Source of the DNA: Candidatus Poseidoniales archaeon
GTDB taxonomy: Archaea; Thermoplasmatota; Poseidoniia; Poseidoniales; Poseidoniaceae
Reading direction: 5' to 3'
Length of the DNA stretch: 45,903 nt
NCBI GenBank assembly: GCA_003602575.1
Contig: QQRY01000015.1
Location: 1 to 45,903 of the forward strand
Both the position numbers and the translations under genes were made by a program. Positions within the stretch are counted from its first letter, which is position 1; every line of letters begins with the position of its first letter. The notes beneath the pieces are model-generated. The model saw only the letters and a list, made by a program, of their open reading frames with translations, made no database searches and was not told where the DNA came from. Positions 6,162 to 20,197 of the stretch are shown piece by piece.

Positions 6162-7964
6162 CTAAACCGAGAATATTGACGAGGCGGCATCGAGTATCAC
6201 TGAAGTAAGTAATGAGGCGAGTCCGGCTATCCAAAGGAGATTTATCGACTGACCCAGTGCACTGGTTTTACCTCCACCTCTTAGTCTGGTAGCAATCATT
6301 GATACCGCTATAACTTGAACTAGAATTAATATTGAAACTACAAGTTTGAACATCTTAATATTTTCTTCTACCGAACTAGCATCTTCCATCACAGGTAGAG
6401 CAACACCACCACCGAAATCAGATAGTGCTGAGACATCGGTATCGGCAAGTCCGCTTGCGACACCAGCAATAGCCTCTCCCAATTGAAGAACAATTGCTAT
6501 TGTTACATTGAGGCTTGTCACGCTTGCAATCAATAATCCAATTGCTACACCCCACATAGTATTAGCAGATAATGAACGACGACGCCTAAGGGAAAGAAGA
6601 CTTCCAACAGAACGAGAAACCATTTCAGCAGTTTCTGCAGGCCTTCCAGATGATTGAGAACCCTCGATGTAAATACGCATATATCTTGAAATTACAGATG
6701 AATTAGTATCTGCGTTAAAGTAATCCCAAGCACGGTCAGAATCAATTCTAGTTGAAAGACGCTTCTCTAAACGGTCGATAGAATTGTCTAACATACCAAA
6801 ATCAATTCCTCTAAGCGCTTTGATTGTAGCGGATGGTTCGGATGATCGTGCTTGAGCAGTACCTCCCAATGCTCTAATAAAATCGGGATATGTTTCATCA
6901 CGGCGTAATACTTGGTTTTCTTCACGCCCAACCATAAATGCTGGGAACATCAAAGGAGTAAGTGGGATTGCTATAATCAACAGACCATATTTATCCCATT
7001 GGTCAGATAATGCATCCCATGCAGTGATAACAGAAAAGACCATTACAACTGCTAAAATAATTGAAATTGAACCAGATATCAAAAATGCTCTTCTAACATT
7101 AACTCTAAATGGTGTATCCATCTCATCCCTTGCAAAAGTTTGGTCTTCTGGAATAGTGGCTCTAAAGGCAAAAACAGCACCCGTTTGAACAATAACGAAA
7201 ATCAAGCCAGCTAAAAGTAGGAAACGAATCCTGCTGAATAATTCGATTGGTGTAGCTTCAGGCGAGCCTACCTCGAATAAAACCATATGAATACCTGCGA
7301 TAACAAGAGCGAAAAGACCAGCAGAGACCAAAGAAACATAGATTTCTTTTAGTGTATCAACCGATTCTAATCTAGTGTCATATAATGTAGTATATTGCTC
7401 TGCAACGGTTTCTTGTTCAGCACGCATGAATTCATCAATTGGTTGCCCTGCTTCGATAGAGAAGGCCATTCTATCGAGAAAATCGGTCCATAACGGACTT
7501 GGGCTTTGTTGAGCAACGATTCTTGCAGCCTCTGGCAGAGAAGTATGCCACTTATCGACAAGTGTCTCAATTCTCTTGACCTCTGAAGCCAATTCACCGT
7601 AATCACTCATCTGCTTTAGAATGTCGAATATCGATTTTGCTCCAACCTCTCCAAGTGATAAAATACCCATACGGGTGATGAACATATGCATCTCTTTTTC
7701 AATACGAGTTGCTGAACGTTGTACTTCCAAAAACGGATATGACAAGGCTGCTAATGCTGAAATTAATGGGAATACTAGAATCATTAAAATTCCGGCAAAT
7801 CCTTGGAATAGGGCACCATCTCCTAACCCTCCAGTCAGGAAAATTAGAATTATTGCTGTGACAAGACCAATTAGACCTGCGCCACCAACAAATAGAATCA
7901 AGAAACGCAAAACTGGAATTTCTAAGCGACGAATGGCCACTTGCCAAATTGGCATTCTTTCCAT
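6162..7964 (-). CDS. arlJ: Archaellum platform membrane protein ArlJ (FlaJ)
   Basis: 600-residue polytopic protein homologous to the GspF/PilC platform of type IV pili. It anchors the motor and is the only multi-span component of the archaellum core. Clusters of membrane helices lie at about 19-45, 53-78, 210-230, 247-270, 290-315, 327-345, 470-500, 540-560 and 575-595. They are separated by two cytoplasmic helical regions, which hold QRSATRIEKEMHMFITRMG and EETYPDFIRALGGTAQARS-like segments (the DETYPDFIRALGG motif near residue 357 is a good T2SSF/ArlJ signature). Basic cytoplasmic loops fit interaction with ArlI. ATG 7964 is preceded by GGAGGTG with 5-base spacing. It follows arlI by 11 bases, giving the invariant H-I-J order. 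Confidence 0.96.
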   Translation of the reverse strand: MERMPIWQVAIRRLEIPVLRFLILFVGGAGLIGLVTAIILIFLTGGLGDGALFQGFAGILMILVFPLISALAALSYPFLEVQRSATRIEKEMHMFITRMGILSLGEVGAKSIFDILKQMSDYGELASEVKRIETLVDKWHTSLPEAARIVAQQSPSPLWTDFLDRMAFSIEAGQPIDEFMRAEQETVAEQYTTLYDTRLESVDTLKEIYVSLVSAGLFALVIAGIHMVLFEVGSPEATPIELFSRIRFLLLAGLIFVIVQTGAVFAFRATIPEDQTFARDEMDTPFRVNVRRAFLISGSISIILAVVMVFSVITAWDALSDQWDKYGLLIIAIPLTPLMFPAFMVGREENQVLRRDETYPDFIRALGGTAQARSSEPSATIKALRGIDFGMLDNSIDRLEKRLSTRIDSDRAWDYFNADTNSSVISRYMRIYIEGSQSSGRPAETAEMVSRSVGSLLSLRRRRSLSANTMWGVAIGLLIASVTSLNVTIAIVLQLGEAIAGVASGLADTDVSALSDFGGGVALPVMEDASSVEENIKMFKLVVSILILVQVIAVSMIATRLRGGGKTSALGQSINLLWIAGLASLLTSVILDAASSIFSV

Positions 7965-7975
7965 GATTACACCTC

Positions 7976-9694
7976 CTAACTATGATTGACTCCAGTCCAT
8001 GTGTCAATTGCTCTATCAAAGGACTCAAAGCCATTATTATAATAAATTCCAAGTAAATCAAAGACATCATCATAGTGAGTCAAGTCTCTATCTGCCATCT
8101 TTTGAAGTGATGCTGCTCTACTGAGCATCTCGTCATAGATATCACGCTTGTTAGAGAAACCTGCCATTGCAGCGATCTTATTTTCCAATAGATGACTTTG
8201 GAACATACCACGGAAATAGTGCTTATCCTTGACAGGGTCCCATTCGAACATACCACGAGTCAGTACACCATCGCTATGTTTGTTGTAGCCAATAACTTCG
8301 TCAATACCTGTGACACGTCTTGCGATTCCTCCACCAGGTGCTTCGACAACTTCTTGGAAAATTGCGAAGTTCAGGTTATCGAAGAAACGAATTGGAACGT
8401 TGATTGGGTCACCAGTAAATCTTTGAATCATTTTAACGATAGAAGATGCGTGGAATGTAGCAATAACAGGGTGACCAGTCTGCATCGCTTGGAACGCCGT
8501 TGCACCCTCAACACCACGTATCTCACCGATAATGATGTATCTTGGACGACTTCTCAAAGCTGCCTTCAGTAAGTCGAACATCTCAACTCTTGATTCTTCA
8601 TTCTTGGAATCACGAGTAACAAGTCTCTGCCAAATTTTGTGACGTACTTTAACTTCAGGAGTATCTTCTGCTGAATATATCTTGACATTGTGGTCAATAA
8701 ACGGTAAAATTGCATTCAAAGTTGTTGTTTTACCAGATGCTGTTTCTCCAGACACCAGTACAGACATACCATACTCTAGACATATCCAGATATATGCTGC
8801 AACTTGAGTGGAGATTGTACCCCATTTGATCAGTTGAATTATTGAAATTGTTTCCTCTGCGAACTTACGTATGGTGAATGACGGACCTAGCATAGATACA
8901 TCGTCTGAAAATATGATGTTAATACGGGAACCATCGAGTAAAGCACCGTCAATAATCGGTTTGTTGTCAGAAACAGGACGTCCTATACGTTCGGACATTG
9001 CTCTTAGATATCTAGACAAAATTTCTCTCTCTCTAAATCTAATATTTGATGTGACCATTCCAAACACTTTGTGGTCCATGTGAATATGCTTTAGGCCGAT
9101 TGAGTGTATATCTTCCAGCATCTCATCTGAAAGAAGAGGTTCAAGTGGACCGTTTTTAATTAAATCTCTAATGACGATATATTGTAGTCTTGCTCTTTGT
9201 TCTGGTGATACGACGAGCCTCTTATCGTCCATCCCAATCATTTCCCAGAATCTTCCTTGCCTACGGACAGTTGAGCCAACTTCGCTATCTAGCATTGTGA
9301 ATCTATCAATCATCTGTTCTAGGATATTCTCAAATTCTCCATCTGTAGTAAAGGTAGGTGCAGTCGGCGCTTCTTGGAGCAAAGTCTCTACCAATTCACG
9401 CCTAATGTTTTCTTCTTCTTCGCTTAATTGCGGTTCTAAACCAAACCAAAGAATCTCTCCTCCGGCACCATCATCATCTTCAGGAGGTTCGTAAATATGA
9501 ATAAAAATCGGTTCTTTGGCAGAGTAAATTAGGTTATATGGCCTCTCTTTCTTAGCATCACGGTCTAATGGACCATAATAAATCGGTCGAGAACCATACC
9601 TAGATTCAAAATCACGAACCCAATCTCCAACGTGTGGAAATGCAGCCATTACGCTGTTGAGGTCGCCCTTTGCAAAACGTGGTTCATCTGCCAT
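7976..9694 (-). CDS. arlI: Archaellum motor ATPase ArlI (FlaI)
   Basis: 572-residue type II/IV secretion-type hexameric ATPase that drives archaellum assembly and rotation. Walker A is GETASGKT (about 316-323). The Asp box region follows (KIYSAEDTPEV), then Walker B RYIIIGEIRG (about 385-394) and the His box GHPVIATFHASS. The C-terminal domain contains DPINVPIRFFDNLNFAIFQEVV, typical for ArlI. The N-terminal ~150 residues carry the family's regulatory domain with PEQRARLQYIVIRDL leading into the linker. The frame could start at TTG 9709, but GGAGG sits immediately upstream of ATG 9694 and overlaps that TTG, so 9694 is chosen (MADEPRFAK). The ribosome-binding site directly follows the arlH stop, indicating coupled translation. 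Confidence 0.97.
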   Translation of the reverse strand: MADEPRFAKGDLNSVMAAFPHVGDWVRDFESRYGSRPIYYGPLDRDAKKERPYNLIYSAKEPIFIHIYEPPEDDDGAGGEILWFGLEPQLSEEEENIRRELVETLLQEAPTAPTFTTDGEFENILEQMIDRFTMLDSEVGSTVRRQGRFWEMIGMDDKRLVVSPEQRARLQYIVIRDLIKNGPLEPLLSDEMLEDIHSIGLKHIHMDHKVFGMVTSNIRFREREILSRYLRAMSERIGRPVSDNKPIIDGALLDGSRINIIFSDDVSMLGPSFTIRKFAEETISIIQLIKWGTISTQVAAYIWICLEYGMSVLVSGETASGKTTTLNAILPFIDHNVKIYSAEDTPEVKVRHKIWQRLVTRDSKNEESRVEMFDLLKAALRSRPRYIIIGEIRGVEGATAFQAMQTGHPVIATFHASSIVKMIQRFTGDPINVPIRFFDNLNFAIFQEVVEAPGGGIARRVTGIDEVIGYNKHSDGVLTRGMFEWDPVKDKHYFRGMFQSHLLENKIAAMAGFSNKRDIYDEMLSRAASLQKMADRDLTHYDDVFDLLGIYYNNGFESFDRAIDTWTGVNHS

Positions 9695-9705
9695 TGAATC
9701 CCTCC

Positions 9706-10440
9706 TCAACTTACCGCCGTAATGTCAACGATGAAGCCCATGCTCGGTTCTACACGCCATCCAACAGATGTCTGAACCGGACCTGCAGCTCTTAAGAATC
9801 TAGTAACTACGATATTTCTCTTGAGGTCTCCACCGATTAGACTGGTGGATAAATCAAGTACAACTTCGGATGAAGCTCGCATTGAATGAAGTAACTTATG
9901 GTCCATTTCATCGGGGTCAACACATAGCATGATTGAACGACCTTCTGATGAAACTTTACGCAGTTTTTGCATCATTTCAAATCTCTCATTTTCTTCAAGT
10001 GAACCCGGCATTAATGCACTAGCAGAATCAAGAATTATCACATCTGCTTGCTTAATTGCATCGCTGTTAAGCACTTGCTCTAAGCCTACGTCTGCTTTTG
10101 ATTCTGCAATGGTTCCAAATCTACTGAAAATCATTAACTGCCCATCTCTAAGGTGTTCGGTGACTCCATATCCAATAGATTCCATCTGTTCGATCCAACC
10201 TCTAGTAGTAAGTTCGGTAGTTATGACAAGAATCTTTGTACCATTTTCTAACATACCATGAACCAGTCTTTGGGCGATTAGAGATTTACCTGCACCGACA
10301 ATTCCTTGAATCACAAATAATGAACGATTAGGGAGTCTAAGGCCCATTGTATCTGCAAGAGAATCTGTTTCTACATCAAATGGGAAACCATCCTCAACTG
10401 GCTTGTGAGGGATAAATAGAGGGTCGTCTTCAGACGGCAT
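9706..10440 (-). CDS. arlH: Archaellum RecA-like ATP-binding protein ArlH (FlaH)
   Basis: 244-residue KaiC/RecA-fold protein that binds ATP and forms a ring with ArlI at the base of the archaellum. The P-loop is GIVGAGKS (46-53) and the Walker B strand is ADVIILDSAS (132-141). ITTELTTRGWIEQMESIGY matches the ArlH segment after strand 2, and QMESIGYGV is typical of the family. The C-terminus (LKRNIVVTRFLRAAGP...GWRVEPSMGFIVD) is also as expected. ATG 10440 has GGAGGTGA upstream. Its 5' end overlaps arlG by 11 bases, so ribosomes finishing arlG reach the site directly. Confidence 0.95.
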   Translation of the reverse strand: MPSEDDPLFIPHKPVEDGFPFDVETDSLADTMGLRLPNRSLFVIQGIVGAGKSLIAQRLVHGMLENGTKILVITTELTTRGWIEQMESIGYGVTEHLRDGQLMIFSRFGTIAESKADVGLEQVLNSDAIKQADVIILDSASALMPGSLEENERFEMMQKLRKVSSEGRSIMLCVDPDEMDHKLLHSMRASSEVVLDLSTSLIGGDLKRNIVVTRFLRAAGPVQTSVGWRVEPSMGFIVDITAVS

Positions 10441-10940: not shown

Positions 10941-11585
10941 TCAGTCTAGAGCCCTCGCCAAATTATATCCATGAGAAGAAACGGCCATTGTATCGAAAGT
11001 CGAGGAACCAAATCCTCTCCATTCAATACTGACTGTTTCTCCAGAGTACCAATTTGAGGTCACTCCTGTAGTCAGTATATCCATAGTTCTAGCATTTGTT
11101 CCATCAACAAAGAACCATACTTCTTCTTGTGGAAGAGTTACTGGACCATTATTGGTCACATTAGTATGTATGACTGTTCCCAAAGTTGCAGTGATTGTTG
11201 CGACAGATGTAACTCCTGGTTGTGGACCATCAATTTGGATAGTCGGTGGAGGGGACGAGTAATTTCCATGACTGGTGATTGTCACGGGATTAACTATTCC
11301 TCCAGAACCATCTACATTGAAAGTCGCTGTAAAACCGCCGGCAACTGCAGTACTTAGCGTACCTGCGGTGTAGCCTGCACCAGGATCTACAATCGTCAAA
11401 CTAACAACTGCTCCTTCCCATATTGTAGCATCATCAATTGTGAATGATGGTAACGGGTCATTGGCCGAATCAAGAGCATCTAATGATGAATCCATCCTAA
11501 CATCTAATGTGGTAATTGCTAAAGCAAAAACTACCATTAGGGATGTACCCACTATTAGTCCTCCAATTCCGACCGATGCGCCCAT
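10941..11585 (-). CDS. arlF: Archaellum stator-type protein ArlF (FlaF) with an inserted Gly/Tyr/Pro repeat
   Basis: 214-residue protein starting MGASVGIGGLIVGTSLM, the N-terminal helix pattern of ArlF, with a beta-sandwich expected outside the membrane. The usual domain is split. FTIDDATIWEGAV (about 48-60) leads into an extra segment of roughly 70 residues, then resumes at HTNVTNNGPVTLPQEEVWFF. The insert has two units, VDPGAGYTAGTLSTAV and ITSHGNYSSPPPTIQIDGP, resembling the G-x-GY-x-x-x-P beta repeat found in phage and secreted proteins. The longest frame begins at GTG 11597, but GAGGTGA overlaps that codon and is spaced 8 bases from ATG 11585, which also begins one base after the upstream stop. 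Confidence 0.8.
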   Translation of the reverse strand: MGASVGIGGLIVGTSLMVVFALAITTLDVRMDSSLDALDSANDPLPSFTIDDATIWEGAVVSLTIVDPGAGYTAGTLSTAVAGGFTATFNVDGSGGIVNPVTITSHGNYSSPPPTIQIDGPQPGVTSVATITATLGTVIHTNVTNNGPVTLPQEEVWFFVDGTNARTMDILTTGVTSNWYSGETVSIEWRGFGSSTFDTMAVSSHGYNLARALD

Positions 11586-11586
11586 T

Positions 11587-12444
11587 TCACTCTTCACCTC
11601 GAAGATTCTTTACTTCACGCCATGATGTAACCAAGGCAGAGAAAGTAAGCAACTCTCGATGAGAGAGATGGTCTTCCAATGCCTCTTCGGTTTCACCAGG
11701 GGAAGCAAGTTGAACAATTGCTAAAACAGCATTTCCTTCATCACTAGTCAGCATTCCAGAGTTAATTGCCTTCTGCGCAAAACTGACTGCAGCCATACCA
11801 GACATATTGTCTAGAAGAAGTGCCGCAATTGTCGGCGCTCCAACCTGATTTGCCTGAGCCGTTGGTCCCGATGAAGGGGCGACCAGGAAAGGATTGGCTG
11901 CTAGTGCTTGAGCTTCGTAAAGTTCCACTAAAGGCGCTTCATCATCACCTTTGAGGCGTTCTACGCCTCCGGTAGTGATTACTTCGCCGTCCGATGTTAC
12001 AATTCTATCTCCGACATATCCATCGACATCATCTTCTCCAGAAATAATCTCTCCATCTTCACCGATTTTCGGTGAATTTGGATTAACAGAGATTCCTTCT
12101 TCGATACGGACTTCGACCATTCTGAGTACATCCTCAACCATGTCGAGGCGACTGCTGATCAGTCTTTCAAGACCTGAAGTGTCAACTTGAGCATTGACAG
12201 TAGCTGGCTGTGCAGCAACAGGATTCATGCTAGAAGCAACTGTTGGAACACTACCAATACTGTTCAATTTCGCTCTTGTCGGACCGGGGGAAATCGTCCA
12301 TGCATCTTCCTCACTCAGTTCTCCCTCTTCAGGGAGAGGCACCTGTTCGATGGCAACATTTGCCATTATCTTCAAGCGTTCTTCACTAAGTTCGGCGTCT
12401 GCATCTCTGATATTTCCCGAGTTATTTCCAAATGGCCAAGCCAT
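11587..12444 (-). CDS. Cytoplasmic protein in the arlC/D/E position of the archaellum operon
   Basis: 285 residues with no signal peptide or membrane segment. The N-terminus (MAWPFGNNSGNIRDAD) is followed by an acidic region and a helical stretch (GLERLISSRLDMVEDVLRMV) suited to a coiled coil. A Gly/Asp-rich turn segment comes next (EDGEIISGEDDVDGYVGD). A C-terminal helical domain ends in LEDHLSHRELLTFSALVTSW. In euryarchaea the gene between archaellins and arlF encodes ArlC, ArlD and/or ArlE, which link the motor to the chemotaxis adaptor CheF. Position and soluble helical character fit that role, but I cannot see the usual FlaD/E domain motif, so homology is unproven. A strong AAGGAGGT site precedes ATG 12444. 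Confidence 0.7.
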   Translation of the reverse strand: MAWPFGNNSGNIRDADAELSEERLKIMANVAIEQVPLPEEGELSEEDAWTISPGPTRAKLNSIGSVPTVASSMNPVAAQPATVNAQVDTSGLERLISSRLDMVEDVLRMVEVRIEEGISVNPNSPKIGEDGEIISGEDDVDGYVGDRIVTSDGEVITTGGVERLKGDDEAPLVELYEAQALAANPFLVAPSSGPTAQANQVGAPTIAALLLDNMSGMAAVSFAQKAINSGMLTSDEGNAVLAIVQLASPGETEEALEDHLSHRELLTFSALVTSWREVKNLRGEE

Positions 12445-12493: not shown

Positions 12494-13060
12494 TCAGATA
12501 ATTGGTGAGCCGTCTTGAGCATTGTTGATTGTCAAAGTCTCGTAAGTAGTTCCGCCATTTTCAACGTGGATGAACAATGTAGCTTGTGGAGGAGACTGTC
12601 CATTAACACCTGCTGCAGTACATACACCTGGATTAATCATAATCTTGTAAGCGTTTTGAACTGTCATTTGTCCGACACCGCCAGCGAAGCCAGCTACGGA
12701 TTGAAGTTGTACATCATTAGCAGTTAATTGGTTAGTCTCATAACCCGCACCTGTATTACAGAATAATTGGTATGATACGTCAATAGTATTGATTGCATCG
12801 CTACCTGCCCCTAGTCTTACGTAAAGGACGTATTCTCCAGTATTTTGAACATATCCTGCTTGAATTGTAATCTTACCAGATAGTTCATCAGATGTATCGT
12901 CACCAGTTCTTTGTGCATTTTGCTGTAATTTTTCAGCGGTTTGTACAATAACGGCAGATGCTACTGCTGCAACTAGAATTAGAGAAATGAATACAATCAT
13001 TGCACCAATACCGATAGCAGCCCAGTTGTCGTTGACTTGAGTTTCGTTATTAGACTTCAA
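12494..13060 (-). CDS. arlB2: Archaellin (archaellum filament subunit), second copy
   Basis: 188-residue type IV pilin-like filament protein. The core N-terminal helix reads [20 protein letters not shown], then [21 protein letters not shown], nearly the same as in the upstream copy. The C-terminal domain is a divergent beta-rich region with [16 protein letters not shown] and two cysteines ([17 protein letters not shown]). It ends with the SPII tail. The leader is [14 protein letters not shown]. The position aligned to the usual prepilin-peptidase site lacks the basic residues and glycine seen in most euryarchaeal archaellins. Start is TTG 13060, whose TTGA overlaps the stop of arlB1, with GGTG just upstream, so translation is coupled. 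Confidence 0.93.
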
Positions 13061-13593
13061 ATAATCACCGCCCCTGTTGCAGTAGATGCGCCATAGTTCA
13101 TCACTTCATATGTGAAACCAGCGTTTCCTGCTTGGAACATCAAGTAATGTGCAGTATTTGCTGCATGTCCACAATTAACTAAATTCAATTGTATTTCATA
13201 TATTTCACCTGGGTCAAGTGTTGCTGTTGCGGTTGTACTGACCGGCTGAGAAGCAGTCATATCTCCAGCATCAGTTCCACCTTGGCATACTATGTTCCAA
13301 ACTGCTTGCGCAGGAGCAACAGACTCAGATCCTGGTGCTAATTCGAATGTTACTCGAATTGTTGCAGCACCTGAAACTACAGCACTTAATGGCATAATCT
13401 TACTTGCCATTTGCTGTTGTGTCTGATCACCTGTCGTTTGTGCATTCTGTTGCAACTTTTCAGCAGTCTGAATAATGACCGCTGAAGCCACAGCTGCTAC
13501 AAGAATCAATGCAATGAAAACAATCATTGCACCAATACCCATCGCAGCGACGGTATCGCTATTTTCGTTCTTTATTTCTTTATTATTTTTCAT
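13057..13593 (-). CDS. arlB1: Archaellin (archaellum filament subunit), first copy
   Basis: 178-residue archaellin from ATG 13593 ([17 protein letters not shown]). The filament-core helix [20 protein letters not shown] continues into [20 protein letters not shown]. The outer domain is Ala/Thr-rich, with two cysteines (NIVCQGG, LVNCGHA) that could form a disulfide, and ends TGAVII. The longest frame begins at GTG 13602, but that GTG lies inside the AGGTGA ribosome-binding site, which is correctly spaced for ATG 13593. A short hairpin and an A-rich leader lie just upstream (13594-13658). As first archaellin it is probably the major filament protein, though this cannot be judged from sequence. 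Confidence 0.93.
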
Positions 13594-13627
13594 ATTTTTC
13601 ACCTTTTTTATTTTTTTTACTCGTCCT

Positions 13628-13658: not shown

Positions 13659-14864
13659 CTAGGAATTACCTCCTCTGCCCAGGTCGATGCTTAGTTGCAT
13701 TCTAATCACTGCAACCTCATCGGGGGATAGACGTTCCACGAATGGAACCTTAGCCGTAGTATAACCCGGAGGTAACCACGGAGTGAGTACAATATCTGAA
13801 AGTGGCTCCATAGAGCGGTTTTGGGCACGAATGGTGACCATTATCTCCCCAGAGCGCATCTCATAACCAGTAGAAACTGCTAATTTACGTGAAAGAGGTA
13901 TTTCATCAGCACCAAATCTTTCACCAGATTTAATGTCGAATCGAAGAGGAAGATTACCGCCTGGCGCGATAATTGGAAGATCTACTGAATTCGGTTCAGA
14001 ATACCAACCTTCTGGAACTGGAGGGGAGAGACGCATAGCAGGCATGGCGATTGGACCATCGTTGATTAATCTGACAAGTAAAACTCCTACATCTCCTCCT
14101 GCAGGCCATCGAGTATCCACGCCGAGCCAGAAATGTCTGAAAAAGAATGGGTTTAGTGTAGATGTATTGCCACCTATCAAATCGTCGACTAAATATTCAA
14201 CTTCATTCGCTGCTTGACTGACATCCCCGATTTCAGCAGCAGAAGTAGCGTTTCTCAATCTCAGTAGAATGTTTTCAACTTCATCTCTTTCTACTTTCTT
14301 TTCCTTTAGCAGTCTATGCAACATAGCAATACTTCGCCTTAGATATAACACATCTTCCTCTAAAGTGACCAAAGCTTGTTCCGCTTTGAAAACACTCTTT
14401 TTTGCACGACTTAATTTATGCATGGAGAGGAATTTCTTAGCCTCCATGATATCGATCTCAGTAGCAGCCAAGGAATTGGTGTCTTCTTGAATTACAGTCT
14501 GAACTATATTCTCAAGATTGTTTGAAGCGTTGCGAATACGTTCATCATAATTATCAGAAGCCGGAGGTGTTTGGATTATTTCTTGACTAGGTTCTTCATT
14601 TACCACTTCTTCGGTTTCAATTACTTCAACTGCCTCAACTATTTCTTCGGTTATCACGTCTTCTTCTTCCGGTTCAGTATTCGAATATAAATTACTAAAC
14701 TCAATAGCATCGTCGTCTATTTCATCTTCCACATCTTCCAAGGCAGTAGTTGTCATGGAATTGTCATATAATTGGTCAAATTCAATAGTTTCCTCATCTG
14801 GAGATTGACCCGGAATAACGATGTCATCCAACTCAATATCATCTACTTCTTCATCAGGCATCAT
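13659..14864 (-). CDS. Acidic coiled-coil protein with C-terminal Ig-like domain, upstream of the archaellins
   Basis: 401 residues, no signal peptide and no membrane helix. Residues 1-100 are very acidic, with two similar [16 protein letters not shown]-like units ([13 protein letters not shown] at about 24 and [13 protein letters not shown] at about 52). Residues ~105-235 are helical with heptad character ([40 protein letters not shown]). Residues ~245-401 form a beta domain ([38 protein letters not shown]) resembling CARDB/NEW3-type Ig-like folds. GGAGGTGA lies 3 bases before ATG 14864 and 6 before ATG 14861, so the second is as likely. It overlaps the giant surface-protein gene upstream by about 11 bases. 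No family is recognised. A cytoplasmic partner of that membrane protein is a reasonable guess. Confidence 0.85.
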
Positions 14865-17800
14865 CTCTCACCTCCTCATCTCCAAGTATTCCGTCGATAT
14901 TCAAATTATCTAACAGGTTTGAATCTGAACCTATTGGTGCTTCATCGAAAATTTCGCTTAGGTCAATCCCTTCATTTGCTAAATCATTGAGTAATCTAGC
15001 AGGATCGCTTAAGTCTCTTTCAATACGTGTTGCTTTGACTTCAATATCAGTTAGCCTTCCATACAAGCCACCATAGAGGCTGTCTGCTCTCTTAACTAGA
15101 ATCCATACTCCAATAGTCACTATACCTACATAGCCGACAAGGGATATGAGGTTGGATTTATTCATCTCGAGTTGAGGAGGTATACCAAGGACTACTCCTA
15201 GCATTCCAAGCAGAGGAAGTGAGAGGATGACTCTTAGTTGTCTTCGACTGTCTGCAAGTGCTTGGAAGTGGTCAGCATAAAGTGTCGAGACACCCTTACG
15301 AGCTCTCTGATAGTCTTCATGTATCAATCTAAATTCATCTGTGCTACTCCAAGTCATCTTCCAAACCATCAATGCCGCTACAAGTAATACAAATGGCCCC
15401 CAGAAGAGAACATTGATCAAGTGGAAAGCAAATCCTAAGCCAAGAATTCCCGAGTATACTGCAAATAGTCTAAACTTCTCATTTTGGCCCGTCAGACGGC
15501 CAAGAATTAGAGATAGAAGAGTGAATACTACAAATGCTACGAAACTTGAAGACTGGTCTGGAGACCAAGAATATACCTCATCTTCGTAAACCAGCCTATC
15601 ATTTCCAACTACGTTCTTTGACAAGAAGGTTGTATCTAACTCGACAACACAAGTTCCATCGATGGATTGTGCCCACCAATCGATCTTATCTGTGGTCAAA
15701 TTCCATTCAACTGTGATTTCCTCATCAGGCCCTAATTGGGTAATAGGCATTGGAGATGTATTGATTGTAGAACCGGAACAAATAGCATCTACTTCGAATA
15801 TTAGGGCTTGAGAAGTTCCTTCATTTCTTATTGTAGCGCTCAGCACAGAGTCAGTACCTTCTTGGAAAGTGCCTTCACTAATCCATACTCTCTTGACGGC
15901 AGGGTCAGCATAAACATCTAATTCGAATCTAAAAGTTTCTTCGAACGATTCTGTATAACCTGCATTCTCATCAGGATGGAATAACTTGAACTTTAAGTCC
16001 CATCCATCTTCAGTGATCAGATTAGGCTTATCAGGCATATCAACTGAGATTCTAATCAAATTAGGATTCCAGGCGGTTGAAACCGGTAGAGTGTAACGAT
16101 TATTACCAGATGTTAGCCCACAATCAACATTGATAAGTGGTAATGAGTGAGTTGTAACTGAACCATTTACTTCATCTATTAGCAGAGTGAATGTCCAAGG
16201 ATAATTTGCTTCATCCAATCCATTTGCATCGAAATCAAATAATCTTGTAGCGGAGCACAGTTCAAATTCATATGCTACTGAAGTGGAAGGTCCTCTCGGT
16301 ATGTGAGAGTATATCATGTTGACTTCAACAGGGCCACCATCTTGTGGAGGCTGTAATACATAATCACTAATCTTGAAAAATCGCGACATTACCAGAGTAG
16401 TATTGAGATATTCAATACCCTCTACTGATGGGTCTTGAGGAGTCAGGGTTACCACCAGATTAGATGTCAAATCTAGGTCTGGAGTTGCATCATCTGATAG
16501 AATGATGAACTCAAAAGTAACATTAGAATTACGAGGGAGAGATAATTGGGATGGACCGCTAACAAAGACCCAATCATCGCTGTAAATGTCCAAACTAGGG
16601 TCACTCGAGATATCGAATCCTGATTTGAAAATTTCATATGATACATTGACTGTTACATCTTTATTTCCAACGTTGACAATGGTTGCTTCCCAAGTCCTAT
16701 TGGTTTGTCTACTGAATTCCATTTCATAAGACCAATCTCTAACTTCGAGCATGAACATAGGTGAAATTACTAACTCGACATTAGCAATTCCAGCAGTTAT
16801 ATTTGTCGAAGGGTAAGCTAGTCTAATTGTTAGGTTATGGACCGAACCGTCATCAAGTCCCTCTGCTTCAGAGATCTCCGGGACCGTTACAGTGACACTT
16901 CCTTGGATGACTTGATCCTTGATTAGAGACATTGACTGCGTTTCAGGAACTACGTCCCATCCGCCTTCTACTGATGCAATAACATCGAAGTTTTCTGCAA
17001 GATTACCCAGATTTGTAACTGTGAAGTTTACCACTTGTTCCTGCCCTGGAAGTATTCCCATTTGTTCGGGAGCATCGATTAGAAGAGAACGTTGTTCGCT
17101 GACATTTGCGACAATGTTGGCGGATAAATTCACACCTGTATCTGTTGAAACCCAAACCGTCGCCATATAGAACGAATCTGAATCCGCATCTGCTGCTGCA
17201 CTCATTCGAATTTTAATCGAATCTTCGATTCCAGGCGCTATTATGATTTGATTAGGCGTTTCAAGGCTGAAGTCGACATCGCCGGATTGAGATTCATCCA
17301 ACCAAATAGAGTAGGTTGCAGGAGCATTACCGGTATTTGTCACGTAAACTCTTGTCAATGGAGTTTCCATTTGTGAAGCATTTATTGGGACTGTTTGATT
17401 GGTTGGAGTGAGTGTTGCGTTGATGAAAGGACCGACCCTAATGTCAACGGTTTCAACGCCGATTAACAGACCTGTATCCTTATCCTCTATCTTGATGTTA
17501 ATTGGCTGAATCGTATACGCAGGAGCAAATGGATCGGTTGTAACAGTCAGTCTGAAATTAGCAATGTGAGAGTTACCCTGCAATGGATAGTCTGCTACGT
17601 CGGCAGACAGATCGTCAATGGTATTGGATGTCGAAGTTGAAGTATTGAGTGAAGCAATCCATCCATTGGGCAAGTCATCTAGAATGGTTAGCCTGTAAGA
17701 GGTCAAGTCATTACCAGTATTTGCAAATGCTAAGTCATGTGATTTCGCTTCTCCAAGCGGCACATCGAACGGCCCAGTGTCAATAATCTCGGCATCTTGA

Positions 17801-19752
17801 ATTGAAGGTACTACGATAGTCATATTCCTTGTTACTTCTGAAATCAAGACATTCGGGATTGTTGGACCATTAAGGGTTGGTGTCGCAGTCACTGGTATGG
17901 TAATGGTACCAGCCAAAGGATAATCGTCATATGGCCCTTGTATTCCTAAAGAAGTTGTACCACTATCGCCAAGTGACATTCCAGTAAAAGACCAAGGACT
18001 CAAGTTTGTGGACCATCTATCGGCTTCGGAGAATCCTCCGCTGTTTAGAGGGCTAAAGGAGAGATTGCCTACTGTCAAAACTGAATCTATCGTATTGGAA
18101 AGAGCACCGTCAAGATTGTGCCTAACTTCTACCGATAAGGGCAATAGTTCATCCCAACCAAAACCATTCTTAGCAGCAATTACTTCCTCGGCAGTTAATT
18201 CGAGTTGCTCCCCATTAAGCCCAGGGTCGACTACAATAACAGGTCTAACCTCAATTTGGCTCATTGAAGTGGAAGGTAGGCCACCCTCGCTAGGCATAGC
18301 CTGTACCCACACATTTAGAACATCACCAGCACGATTGTATTCTGATGAATCTAGAGGCTGTTGTATAGGTGGCACAGTGATAGATACCTCGAATATTATC
18401 ACTTCAGAAGCGTTTACTATTCCAGTGAAAGGAGTAGAAAGTTCAACCGACCAATTAGTGGCATTGACAGAAAGACCGGCTGTTAAAGAAAAGGAACCAT
18501 GAACGTTACCTGTATTGGTTAGCGTAGCGGTGAAGTTTACTTCCTTTCCAGGAGTTACCATTGTCGTAGTAGGAGGCATTACAATTGTTGCCTCAAATAA
18601 TTCTCCAGCCATAACTCTAGCAGTGGAAGAGAGAGTATATGATCCACCAGCAGAAACTAAATTGACTGTGATAGTATCACTCTGGGAGCGAAGGGCATTG
18701 GATGGAACTGCTACTGGAACTAATATGGTCGTACTAGCGCCCGGAGAAAATATGCTGGTTGAAGGGCTTGGACTGTGAGGTTGATTCCAACCCAAGACGC
18801 TTGACACTGATATAGCGAATGAATCGCTGTTAATCCCCTTATTTGTTACAATGAATGTCAAAGTTGTTGTTAATCCTGGCTCCGTCGTTCTATCTGCAGG
18901 AGTGGATATCTCTGCAATGTAGTCCGAGAATTCAACATTTCTCTGTTGCACTATATCCTCATCGGTCCAACTACCTGTACCATTGTAAATCACTTTGGCT
19001 GTAAGCGACCAAATACCGGCCATGGCGCCACCATTGAATGATGTTGAAAGGTTTTCACTCGCAGCCGGAATATAAAGAGAACCGGGGCTTAAGATAAGTT
19101 CGCCGGACCAAAACGTCTTGACATTAGAAGGATCGAGTGTGTCGATGAATTCAAGTTCGAATACTGCTGAGATATCTTTTACACCAATATTGATGACAGT
19201 TGCATTGAATTCTTGGGCATTGTTTGCAATTCTAGCAATTGATGAACCGCCAGAAGGCTCGGGTATGGAATCTCCAGTAACGTATCCCTTCATGAACGGT
19301 GGAGATGAAACGTTGAAATCGATACGCTTCTCATCGTTAGCCGAGTTAGGGTCGTTGGTCTGTGCAATTACCCTAGCAAATAGGGTTTGAAGATCTCCGG
19401 GCGATGCCGTCCATGCAATCAATACTGGATTAGATGATGATGTGCTTGGAATATTTCCTAAGTTTACGGTCTTAACGATTGTCTCACCAGCAAGAGGAGA
19501 GCCTCTGTGGACTAATGAAACCGAAGCGACCCCGTCTGCTGAGCCGGAATTGGAAACAATAATTCGTGCGACATGTGTTGCATTTTCAACCTCTATTCCA
19601 GCACCGTCCGTAACAGAACCTGCGCCATCCAAAGTAAACAATGAAACACTGAAGTCGGGAGTGGTACGAGCTGAAGTATCCCCACTTGCACTAACTATAG
19701 GAGACATTGCGGGAGCCAAGAATAGCATTATCATGATAATGCCAAAAGACAT
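14854..19752 (-). CDS. Giant Ig-repeat membrane protein at the head of the archaellum cluster
   Basis: About 1,632 residues from ATG 19752. A signal-peptide-like segment (MSFGIIMIMLFLAPAMSPIV) is followed by about ten Ig-like/CARDB or NEW3-type units rich in Asn, Thr and Ser. Recurrent strands resemble VxNTGNxxxxF, e.g. FTATLTNTGNVHGSFSL, VTNTGNAPATYSIWL and FTVTNLGNLAENFDV. Near the C-terminus come several hydrophobic helices (FVAFVVFTLLSLILGRL, LLLVAAL-type segment, ILSLPLLGMLGVVLGI, SLVGYVGIVTIGVWILV). A cytoplasmic acidic helical tail of ~75 residues follows. The open frame extends to 19872 but overlaps the 143-aa gene. GGAGGTG at 19780-19786 is best spaced for a CTG at 19773, which would add MRENLSK as a charged n-region. 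The protein probably spans the envelope. Linkage to motility is from gene context. Confidence 0.88.
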   Translation of the reverse strand: MSFGIIMIMLFLAPAMSPIVSASGDTSARTTPDFSVSLFTLDGAGSVTDGAGIEVENATHVARIIVSNSGSADGVASVSLVHRGSPLAGETIVKTVNLGNIPSTSSSNPVLIAWTASPGDLQTLFARVIAQTNDPNSANDEKRIDFNVSSPPFMKGYVTGDSIPEPSGGSSIARIANNAQEFNATVINIGVKDISAVFELEFIDTLDPSNVKTFWSGELILSPGSLYIPAASENLSTSFNGGAMAGIWSLTAKVIYNGTGSWTDEDIVQQRNVEFSDYIAEISTPADRTTEPGLTTTLTFIVTNKGINSDSFAISVSSVLGWNQPHSPSPSTSIFSPGASTTILVPVAVPSNALRSQSDTITVNLVSAGGSYTLSSTARVMAGELFEATIVMPPTTTMVTPGKEVNFTATLTNTGNVHGSFSLTAGLSVNATNWSVELSTPFTGIVNASEVIIFEVSITVPPIQQPLDSSEYNRAGDVLNVWVQAMPSEGGLPSTSMSQIEVRPVIVVDPGLNGEQLELTAEEVIAAKNGFGWDELLPLSVEVRHNLDGALSNTIDSVLTVGNLSFSPLNSGGFSEADRWSTNLSPWSFTGMSLGDSGTTSLGIQGPYDDYPLAGTITIPVTATPTLNGPTIPNVLISEVTRNMTIVVPSIQDAEIIDTGPFDVPLGEAKSHDLAFANTGNDLTSYRLTILDDLPNGWIASLNTSTSTSNTIDDLSADVADYPLQGNSHIANFRLTVTTDPFAPAYTIQPINIKIEDKDTGLLIGVETVDIRVGPFINATLTPTNQTVPINASQMETPLTRVYVTNTGNAPATYSIWLDESQSGDVDFSLETPNQIIIAPGIEDSIKIRMSAAADADSDSFYMATVWVSTDTGVNLSANIVANVSEQRSLLIDAPEQMGILPGQEQVVNFTVTNLGNLAENFDVIASVEGGWDVVPETQSMSLIKDQVIQGSVTVTVPEISEAEGLDDGSVHNLTIRLAYPSTNITAGIANVELVISPMFMLEVRDWSYEMEFSRQTNRTWEATIVNVGNKDVTVNVSYEIFKSGFDISSDPSLDIYSDDWVFVSGPSQLSLPRNSNVTFEFIILSDDATPDLDLTSNLVVTLTPQDPSVEGIEYLNTTLVMSRFFKISDYVLQPPQDGGPVEVNMIYSHIPRGPSTSVAYEFELCSATRLFDFDANGLDEANYPWTFTLLIDEVNGSVTTHSLPLINVDCGLTSGNNRYTLPVSTAWNPNLIRISVDMPDKPNLITEDGWDLKFKLFHPDENAGYTESFEETFRFELDVYADPAVKRVWISEGTFQEGTDSVLSATIRNEGTSQALIFEVDAICSGSTINTSPMPITQLGPDEEITVEWNLTTDKIDWWAQSIDGTCVVELDTTFLSKNVVGNDRLVYEDEVYSWSPDQSSSFVAFVVFTLLSLILGRLTGQNEKFRLFAVYSGILGLGFAFHLINVLFWGPFVLLVAALMVWKMTWSSTDEFRLIHEDYQRARKGVSTLYADHFQALADSRRQLRVILSLPLLGMLGVVLGIPPQLEMNKSNLISLVGYVGIVTIGVWILVKRADSLYGGLYGRLTDIEVKATRIERDLSDPARLLNDLANEGIDLSEIFDEAPIGSDSNLLDNLNIDGILGDEEVRDDA

Positions 19753-19765
19753 TTTCGATAGGTTT

Positions 19766-20197
19766 TCACGCAGATGCGCCACCTCCTGGTGCTTCGAAAT
19801 TATCAATTCTAACCTTCTTGCCTTGGCGTTTCCACTGAGCCAATAGTTGGTCCAGTAGCCTACCGTGCTCAATATCGGTAATCCCTAGTCTGCGTCGCTC
19901 TTCCCAAAGCAGTAATTGTTCGGTTTTGGTTAGAAGAGCATCTCTCAAATATAATTCAAGGGTTCTACGGTAAGCATCTCTATCTGAAATAGCATAGACT
20001 ATCACGTCACCTGGTAGTTGATCTGCACGATTTTGAATAATGTTTCCAAGCGTTAGGGCCTCGTCATAAGAAAGGTTGCGCTTGTCTAGTTCAGCTTGTA
20101 TCGAACTGGCTATTTCTTGGAGTTCATACTTGCCTGGGGCGCGCTGAACTTGCTTCAACAACCGGCGGGCCTTTCTAGACATACGTAGACCTACCAT
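19766..20197 (-). CDS. Basic helical protein, first gene of the archaellum transcription unit, unknown function
   Basis: 143 residues, mostly predicted helix and basic (MSRKARRLLKQVQRAPGKYE at residues 6-25; LLLWEERRRLGITDIEHGRL). It ends KVRIDNFEAPGGGASA, a flexible tail whose codons contain the GGAGGTG ribosome-binding site of the next gene. No membrane segment or signal peptide is present. Start may be ATG 20197 or the inner ATG 20182. I recognise no family. Being promoter-proximal in a 14-kb unit that leads to the archaellum genes, a regulatory or assembly role is possible but unsupported by motifs. Confidence 0.75.
   Translation of the reverse strand: MVGLRMSRKARRLLKQVQRAPGKYELQEIASSIQAELDKRNLSYDEALTLGNIIQNRADQLPGDVIVYAISDRDAYRRTLELYLRDALLTKTEQLLLWEERRRLGITDIEHGRLLDQLLAQWKRQGKKVRIDNFEAPGGGASA
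19780..19786 (-). promoter_or_regulatory. Ribosome-binding site GGAGGTG of the giant Ig-repeat gene
   Basis: A full GGAGGTG lies inside the last codons of the 143-aa gene. It is 27 bases from ATG 19752, too far for direct use, but 6 bases from an in-frame CTG at 19773. The nearby GTG 19769 is out of frame. The site therefore argues for a non-AUG start or for reinitiation. Confidence 0.5.

Follow-up and report, generated by a model that had tools for sequence, protein, structure and literature searches.

The stator protein ArlF of the archaellum encoded in the window (the whole stretch of DNA analyzed, 45,903 nucleotides) has, as judged from its AlphaFold2 model, the usual ArlF sandwich, to which a separate domain is added in the first hairpin. 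The identity of this insert as a virion-type module is well supported. By sequence, the predicted barrel belongs to a GxGY module family whose other members are virion proteins of tailed phages (head-closure protein, baseplate wedge, tail sheath, and fibres) and giant proteins secreted by archaea of this order. As regards function, there is about an even chance that the barrel is the envelope-facing head of the ArlF/ArlG stator. The insert is a case of a module common to virions and a cellular motor, and a conserved, separable domain of 78 residues offers a concrete handle on what the ArlF stator holds.

The arlF Gene and the Archaellum Cluster

The genome carrying the window (1.97 Mb, 59 contigs, 87% complete) is Candidatus Poseidoniaceae-like and belongs to Marine Group II, which has been called the most abundant group of planktonic archaea in ocean surface waters (PMC6461757). 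The arlF gene is followed immediately by arlG, arlH, arlI, and arlJ and is preceded by two archaellin genes and a gene for a 285-aa protein (Table 1). The initial annotation had placed the reading frame at 10941–11585; the ATG at 11585 is indeed a start option (214 aa), but the ORF runs on to a GTG at 11597 (218 aa).

Table 1. Features of the archaellum cluster and of the insert-bearing arlF gene in the window.
Feature	Position	Strand	Basis
arlJ, platform protein	6162..7964	-	NCBIfam E 9e-118
arlI, motor ATPase	7976..9709	-	NCBIfam E 3.4e-203
arlH	9706..10440	-	NCBIfam ArlH E 2.1e-53
arlG, partner stator protein, 166 aa	10430..10930	-	NCBIfam ArlG E 4.3e-17, residues 1–141
arlF, stator protein of the archaellum, carrying the insert	10941..11597	-	ORF; NCBIfam ArlF match; FlaF/FlaG superposition
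Second ArlF sandwich strand, up to the conserved N-x-G	11151..11180	-	Residues 136–145; predicted strand 130–145
Inserted domain, predicted six-stranded barrel, phage gp18-domain-I-like	11181..11414	-	Residues 58–135 of the 214-aa form
Second unit of the insert (HGNYSSPPPT)	11181..11294	-	Residues 98–135; read from sequence, approximate limit
First GxGY unit of the insert (PGAGYTAGT)	11295..11414	-	Residues 58–97; read from sequence, approximate limit
First ArlF sandwich strand, continuing into the insert	11415..11444	-	Residues 48–57; predicted strand 48–67
285-aa protein between archaellins and arlF	11587..12444	-	No Pfam or NCBIfam match
Archaellin	12494..13060	-	PF01917 E 4.4e-17
Archaellin	13057..13602	-	PF01917 E 2.6e-21

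The NCBIfam ArlF profile covers the post-insert part only (E 7e-5, 23 bits, profile positions 64–122), which corresponds to residues 139–195 of the 217-aa query and 136–192 of the 214-aa form. The cut-off of NF052590 is 110 bits versus 23 bits for the window, and it is non-discriminating, being passed by none of the 243 genomes of the phylum and by one of 14 controls. The protein fits a stator by its context, namely, its arlG-arlH-arlI-arlJ neighbours in an archaellum cluster, and by its predicted fold, which combines an N-terminal hydrophobic helix (residues 4–41) with an archaellin-type β-sandwich like that of the solved ArlF and ArlG structures.

Tully et al. (PMC6336850) listed the Marine Group II operon as FlaAGHIJ together with several unannotated proteins, and the name FlaF does not occur in the text of PMC6336850 or PMC6461757. 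Among the literature matches listed, represented by titles and the beginnings of abstracts and mostly outside subscription literature, there was no description of an insert in the ArlF of Poseidoniales.

The 285-aa gene, which we take to occupy the position of arlC/D/E in other clusters (position being the sole basis), had equivalents, recognized by eye, in loci L192, L195, and L196.

Limits and Predicted Structure of the Inserted Domain

The insert of 78 residues is located within the first β-hairpin of the sandwich and is flanked by the first strand FTIDDATIWE and by the conserved strand VTNNGPV, with two units of the GxGY type in between. The asparagine and glycine of the N-x-G at the end of the second sandwich strand were invariant in 33 ArlFs. 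According to the initial annotation, the sandwich was interrupted after TIDDATIWEG and resumed at VTNNGPV, and both motifs were found at these places; the insert also carries PGAGYTAGT and HGNYSSPPPT as described, whereas its size, given as about 70 residues, was somewhat too low. In the alignment of family ArlFs (A1), the inserted segment measured 71–89 residues in all 68 sequences, with G69 invariant and Y72, G75, F85, G107, and P114 conserved in at least 90% of them; the mean frequency of the top residue was 0.51 in the insert versus 0.50 in the post-insert part. An assembly or bin artefact was ruled out, because the insert was found in 68 genomes.

The AlphaFold2 model of the whole ArlF, built from a 68-row alignment, had a mean pLDDT of 83.1, with ten-residue blocks of 81–89 over the insert. 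Strands 48–67 and 130–145 were predicted to pass from the sandwich into the insert, and the insert folded alone (pLDDT 90.4) gave a separate barrel of six strands. Within residues 41–214, the whole model superposed on FlaG of S. acidocaldarius (5tuh; Z 10.2, 90 residues) and on FlaF of the same species (4zbh, Z 9.6, 94 residues; 4p94, Z 9.5, 91 residues). FlaG and FlaF thus cover 90 and 94 residues of this part of the model, which leaves room for the insert, and residues 61–137 align separately to T4 gp18 (3fo8; Z 7.5). The division into a sandwich and an added domain follows from the course of the strands, the fold of the insert alone, and these two superpositions, one on FlaG/FlaF and the other, apart from it, on gp18. 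The prediction of a normal sandwich with a separate inserted domain, rather than one continuous sandwich, agrees with what had been proposed from the sequence. The ArlF of S. acidocaldarius (FlaF; 4p94/4zbh) shares the archaellin-type β-sandwich (Z 9.5–9.6), but its first hairpin carries no domain, whereas the window ArlF has 78 extra residues; when 28 ArlFs lacking the insert were combined into a profile, its alignment to 4p94 ran across the turn of the first hairpin with no insert.

Similarity of the Insert to Phage Proteins

In a comparison with PDB structures, the insert alone superposed, as a six-stranded barrel, on domain I of T4 gp18 (residues 99–186; Z 7.6, rmsd 2.6, 72 aligned residues, 22% identity) and matched the sheath of phage KP1 (Z 6.8 and 6.5), the first unrelated row having a Z of 2.3; as Z below 8 may reflect a common arrangement, according to the note of the tool, the argument lies in the gap to the next row. 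T4 domain I (3fo8/3foa, residues 98–188) is likewise a six-stranded barrel and an insertion into the β-sandwich domain of its host protein (PMC3004832); unlike the ArlF barrel, it has an α-helix and sits on a contractile sheath. Foldseek aligned the insert with 3fo8 at E 0.15 and a probability of 0.97, and its PDB search with the insert gave no match at E 0.001. Among predicted viral proteins (BFVD), the insert alone had 186 matches, two of them at E ≤ 0.001; the best 50 were mostly phage virion or uncharacterized phage proteins, nearly all with a probability near 1 and a TM of at most 0.80. This search superseded that with the whole ArlF model, in which the TM did not exceed 0.37 among the matches listed.

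The insert folds like Gp18_dom_I but is not a member of PF22639 by the curated cut-off (27 bits): the window ArlF was unmatched, and one of the 68 ArlFs matched at E 0.022. A giant protein from the same genus scored 20.9 bits, also under the cut-off, and the single weak match to Gp18_dom_I in the genome carrying the window (E 0.072) was outside arlF. The link to T4 domain I is one of predicted fold, with no significant sequence score.

Kinship in sequence was found with other virion families. When the 68 inserts were scanned singly against PHROGs (E ≤ 0.1), the head-closure family phrog_460 (Hc2) was matched by 44 of them (best E 2.6e-7), the baseplate wedge families phrog_438 and phrog_708 by 33 and 25, respectively, and the virion structural families phrog_701 and phrog_4406 by 31 each. 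The match of the window's own insert to phrog_460 was modest (E 0.0032). None of 10 reversed inserts matched a virion family (one matched a family of unknown function at E 0.079), and there was no match for the two typed decoys or for an ArlF lacking the insert; as a set, the inserts match virion modules in sequence beyond the decoys. The insert profile matched Hc2 of cyanophage Sf-FP1 (E 3.1e-14) and gp18 of S-CAM1 (E 4.9e-6), with the search-space size set to 1000 and the lowest E-value of a reversed or shuffled decoy at 0.2. The module was detected by this profile (E ≤ 0.01) in 32 of the 36 viral loci examined, 34 of which had been fetched by likeness to an insert of genus g14 and two by likeness to that of the window. 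By tblastn, the window insert matched 14 phage records, all of Synechococcus phages (E 0.3–0.8). One g14 insert matched phrog_460 at E 2.6e-8, and tblastn of the same insert against phage records gave nothing at E ≤ 0.01. In PDB sequence searches, the best match of the single window ArlF had an E-value of 0.48 and the full ArlF profile had none below 1.5; the insert profile matched tailspike Dpo31 (E 0.0029). It should be noted that the GxGY modules of marine myophages (phrog_460 Hc2, phrog_438, phrog_708, and S-CAM1 gp18) are recognizable by sequence, with both units present in Hc2, but are located within virion proteins, outside any archaellum or membrane-stator context.

Distribution of the Insert in ArlF

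A search of 292 genomes of the order (E ≤ 1) revealed an ArlF-like sequence in 208, including 136 of the 145 genomes of the window's own family (f1); the other nine f1 genomes were unmatched. Ninety ORFs from this search were read, to which some f1 genomes with incomplete or faint matches (e.g., G111, G138, G167, G240, and G277) did not contribute. Alignment A1 comprised 68 of them, all from family f1, with the window standing for L001. Of the 22 ORFs outside A1, four were near-copies, one was an incomplete ArlF from f1, three were ArlFs of genus g9, seven came from g14, six were insert-less ArlFs of g15 and g19, and one was an ArlG (L123, not counted). The insert is common to all 68 family ArlFs aligned and is not peculiar to this genome; two genera have even longer ones. 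The rows of A1 were drawn from the match list of a search with the window's ArlF and are biased accordingly; insert-less ArlFs of the sister family surfaced in the same search, and insert-less family ArlFs should therefore have shown as well.

The longer inserts are those of genus g9 (f1), in which the ArlFs L113, L114, and L115 are 336–366 aa long and have a far longer, partly GxGY-like insert in the same loop, and of genus g11, whose insert contained four profile matches (L103). The single ArlF fetched from g7 (L190) was cut by the contig end. In the sister family f2, GxGY units occupied the same loop in all eight ArlFs read from genus g14 (L107–L112, L116, and L117), and the insert was absent from the eight ArlFs read from three other f2 genera, namely, g15 (5/5), g19 (2/2), and g21 (1/1), which measured 131–133 aa (about 146 aa in g21). 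Outside the order, none of 30 ArlF loci had an insert-profile match at E ≤ 1, and the core match did not exceed 149 residues; these loci were the best scores among 122 of 243 genomes matched by an insert-less model, a choice that favours insert-less ArlFs, and some lower matches beyond the 30 were in longer frames (340–440 aa). Alignment A3 included 24 of these loci, the other six being omitted as long or doubtful frames or, in one case, a near-copy. The expectation that the segment is not part of all ArlFs was thus upheld both within the order and outside it.

All 80 named loci had the insert within the ArlF ORF, a sample biased by having been picked for likeness to an insert-bearing query. 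The named records matching ArlF were mainly filed under Euryarchaeota, Candidatus Poseidoniaceae, and Candidatus Poseidoniales and included the MG-II chromosome CM001443. One Poseidoniaceae-type ArlF (L212, CALDQY010000146.1) was on a contig filed under a MAG of the bacterial family Rhodobiaceae; this contig is probably mis-binned.

Selection on the Insert and Its Origin

The dN/dS ratio was estimated for 25 pairs of A1 sequences with a synonymous divergence of 0.1–1.0 in both the insert and the sandwich. Purifying selection acts on the insert, which nevertheless evolves more rapidly than the sandwich (medians of 0.18 and 0.12, respectively); the ratio of the insert was below 1 in all 25 pairs, with a maximum of 0.54. 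Between the window and L002, dN was 0.08 in the insert and nil in the sandwich. The faster change and the lack of the insert in other genera of the order would suit a tolerated module without function, kept harmlessly in the loop, but this explanation is very improbable given the ratios below 1 in every pair and the lack of any loss among the 68 family ArlFs. A better, though still unlikely, alternative is a structural role as a spacer or in self-association, in which the barrel would lengthen or stiffen ArlF or provide ArlF–ArlF or ArlF–ArlG contacts with no binding to the envelope. The insert length does vary by genus (from 71–89 aa in A1 to the g9 proteins), and extra sheath domains in phages have been suggested to stabilize assembly (PMC9230969); the conserved GxGY, F, G, and P residues and the dN/dS below 1 are more in keeping with a defined role, although they would fit a structural one too.

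In a tree of 73 ArlH rows built by a quick method, f2 formed a supported group (99), and g14 was placed beside the insert-less g21 (SH-aLRT 98). One ancestral gain would need three losses around g14, and a separate gain in g14 requires fewer steps; the g14 insert was perhaps gained separately from that of Poseidoniaceae. In the tree of 75-residue modules, a topology holding the f1 and g14 inserts together was not rejected (p-AU 0.88). Outside ArlF, the rows closest by path to the g14 modules were viral; eight of the 71 inner branches were supported, and the tree showed no direction of transfer from or to a viral donor. It is doubtful, but conceivable, that the same barrel was inserted twice in the same ArlF hairpin, in the ancestor of Poseidoniaceae and in g14, turning a stator cap into a grip for a non-canonical surface layer. 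If so, a domain shared with virions would be at work in the anchor of a cellular rotary motor.

The Module in Giant Proteins of the Order

Further module matches in the 40 relatives searched fell in large ORFs. Those examined, from f2 genera g12, g14, and g16 and from one f1 genome, were frames of 1423–2436 aa and a fragment of 254 aa located where its contig ends, each with one to three profile matches. By eye, a signal-like N-terminal segment was present in L197, L199, and L202, and a C-terminal membrane helix with an acidic tail in L197 and L199, the two read to the end. The L202 protein matched Pfam Gp18_dom_I at E 3.4e-4, under the cut-off. In the genome carrying the window, the module was found in ArlF only (E ≤ 0.1), and several relatives likewise had no other module-bearing protein. 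The description of the pattern as common in phage structural and secreted proteins held for both groups, the former by the T4 gp18 fold, BFVD, PHROGs, and the profile.

The giant GxGY-module proteins were those of L197, L199, L200, L201, and L202, and DUF7151 was also present in L197 and L199. Genera g12 and g16 have such proteins, and their sampled genomes had no arlI match at E ≤ 1e-80.

Possible Function of the Barrel

The ArlF of Sulfolobus has been proposed to contact the S-layer and to cap filaments of ArlG, and was placed at the base of the archaellum, outside the filament (PMC8667602). In the predicted structure of the window protein, the first hairpin accommodates a compact barrel of six strands. 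Judging from the topology, this barrel would be oriented outward, at the tip of the hairpin and away from the membrane, and the sandwich would remain free to bind ArlG. The barrel may then bind the envelope, gripping the surface protein or glycan layer of the cell, and such a grip would give the motor something to push against or, if the archaella serve attachment, would hold the base of the filament. Envelope anchoring is the leading reading because the predicted barrel sits at the tip of the hairpin and has relatives in exposed proteins.

Alternatively, the barrel could mediate adhesion to targets outside the cell, such as particles, algal glycans, or other cells, and be unrelated to anchoring of the motor. 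Rinke et al. (PMC6461757) considered the flagella operon of Poseidoniales to serve mainly adhesion and did not identify chemotaxis genes, and relatives of the module occur in the giant secreted proteins as well as among the fibre and baseplate families of phages. Nevertheless, this is improbable: ArlF is situated at the base (PMC8667602), and archaellins or pili would be the more likely site of an outward adhesin.

As to the surface that an envelope-facing head would grip, which the initial annotation supposed to be unusual, the attachment of ArlF in archaea devoid of an S-layer has been posed as an explicit puzzle (PMC12448462). S_layer_C had no match over the cut-off in 31 genomes, a result of little weight because the same Pfam family was over the cut-off in only one of 14 control genomes. 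The Thermoplasmatales O. meridianum, T. acidophilum, and T. volcanium, members of the same phylum, have an archaellum without a canonical S-layer, and their predicted ArlFs were described as having only minor differences and no obviously distinct binding motif (PMC12448462). The lack of an S-layer alone therefore does not bring such a domain. Moreover, genera g15, g19, and g21 have archaella with no insert, so the archaellum of this order can dispense with it.

Upstream of the archaellins, the window encodes a 1672-aa protein (14854–19872, minus strand) with several Ig-like or CARDB-type matches; inspection by eye also indicated membrane helices toward its C-terminus. This protein is a candidate for a surface partner of the cluster. 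At the equivalent place in the sister-family locus L196, a gene tail resembling this gene was recognized by eye.
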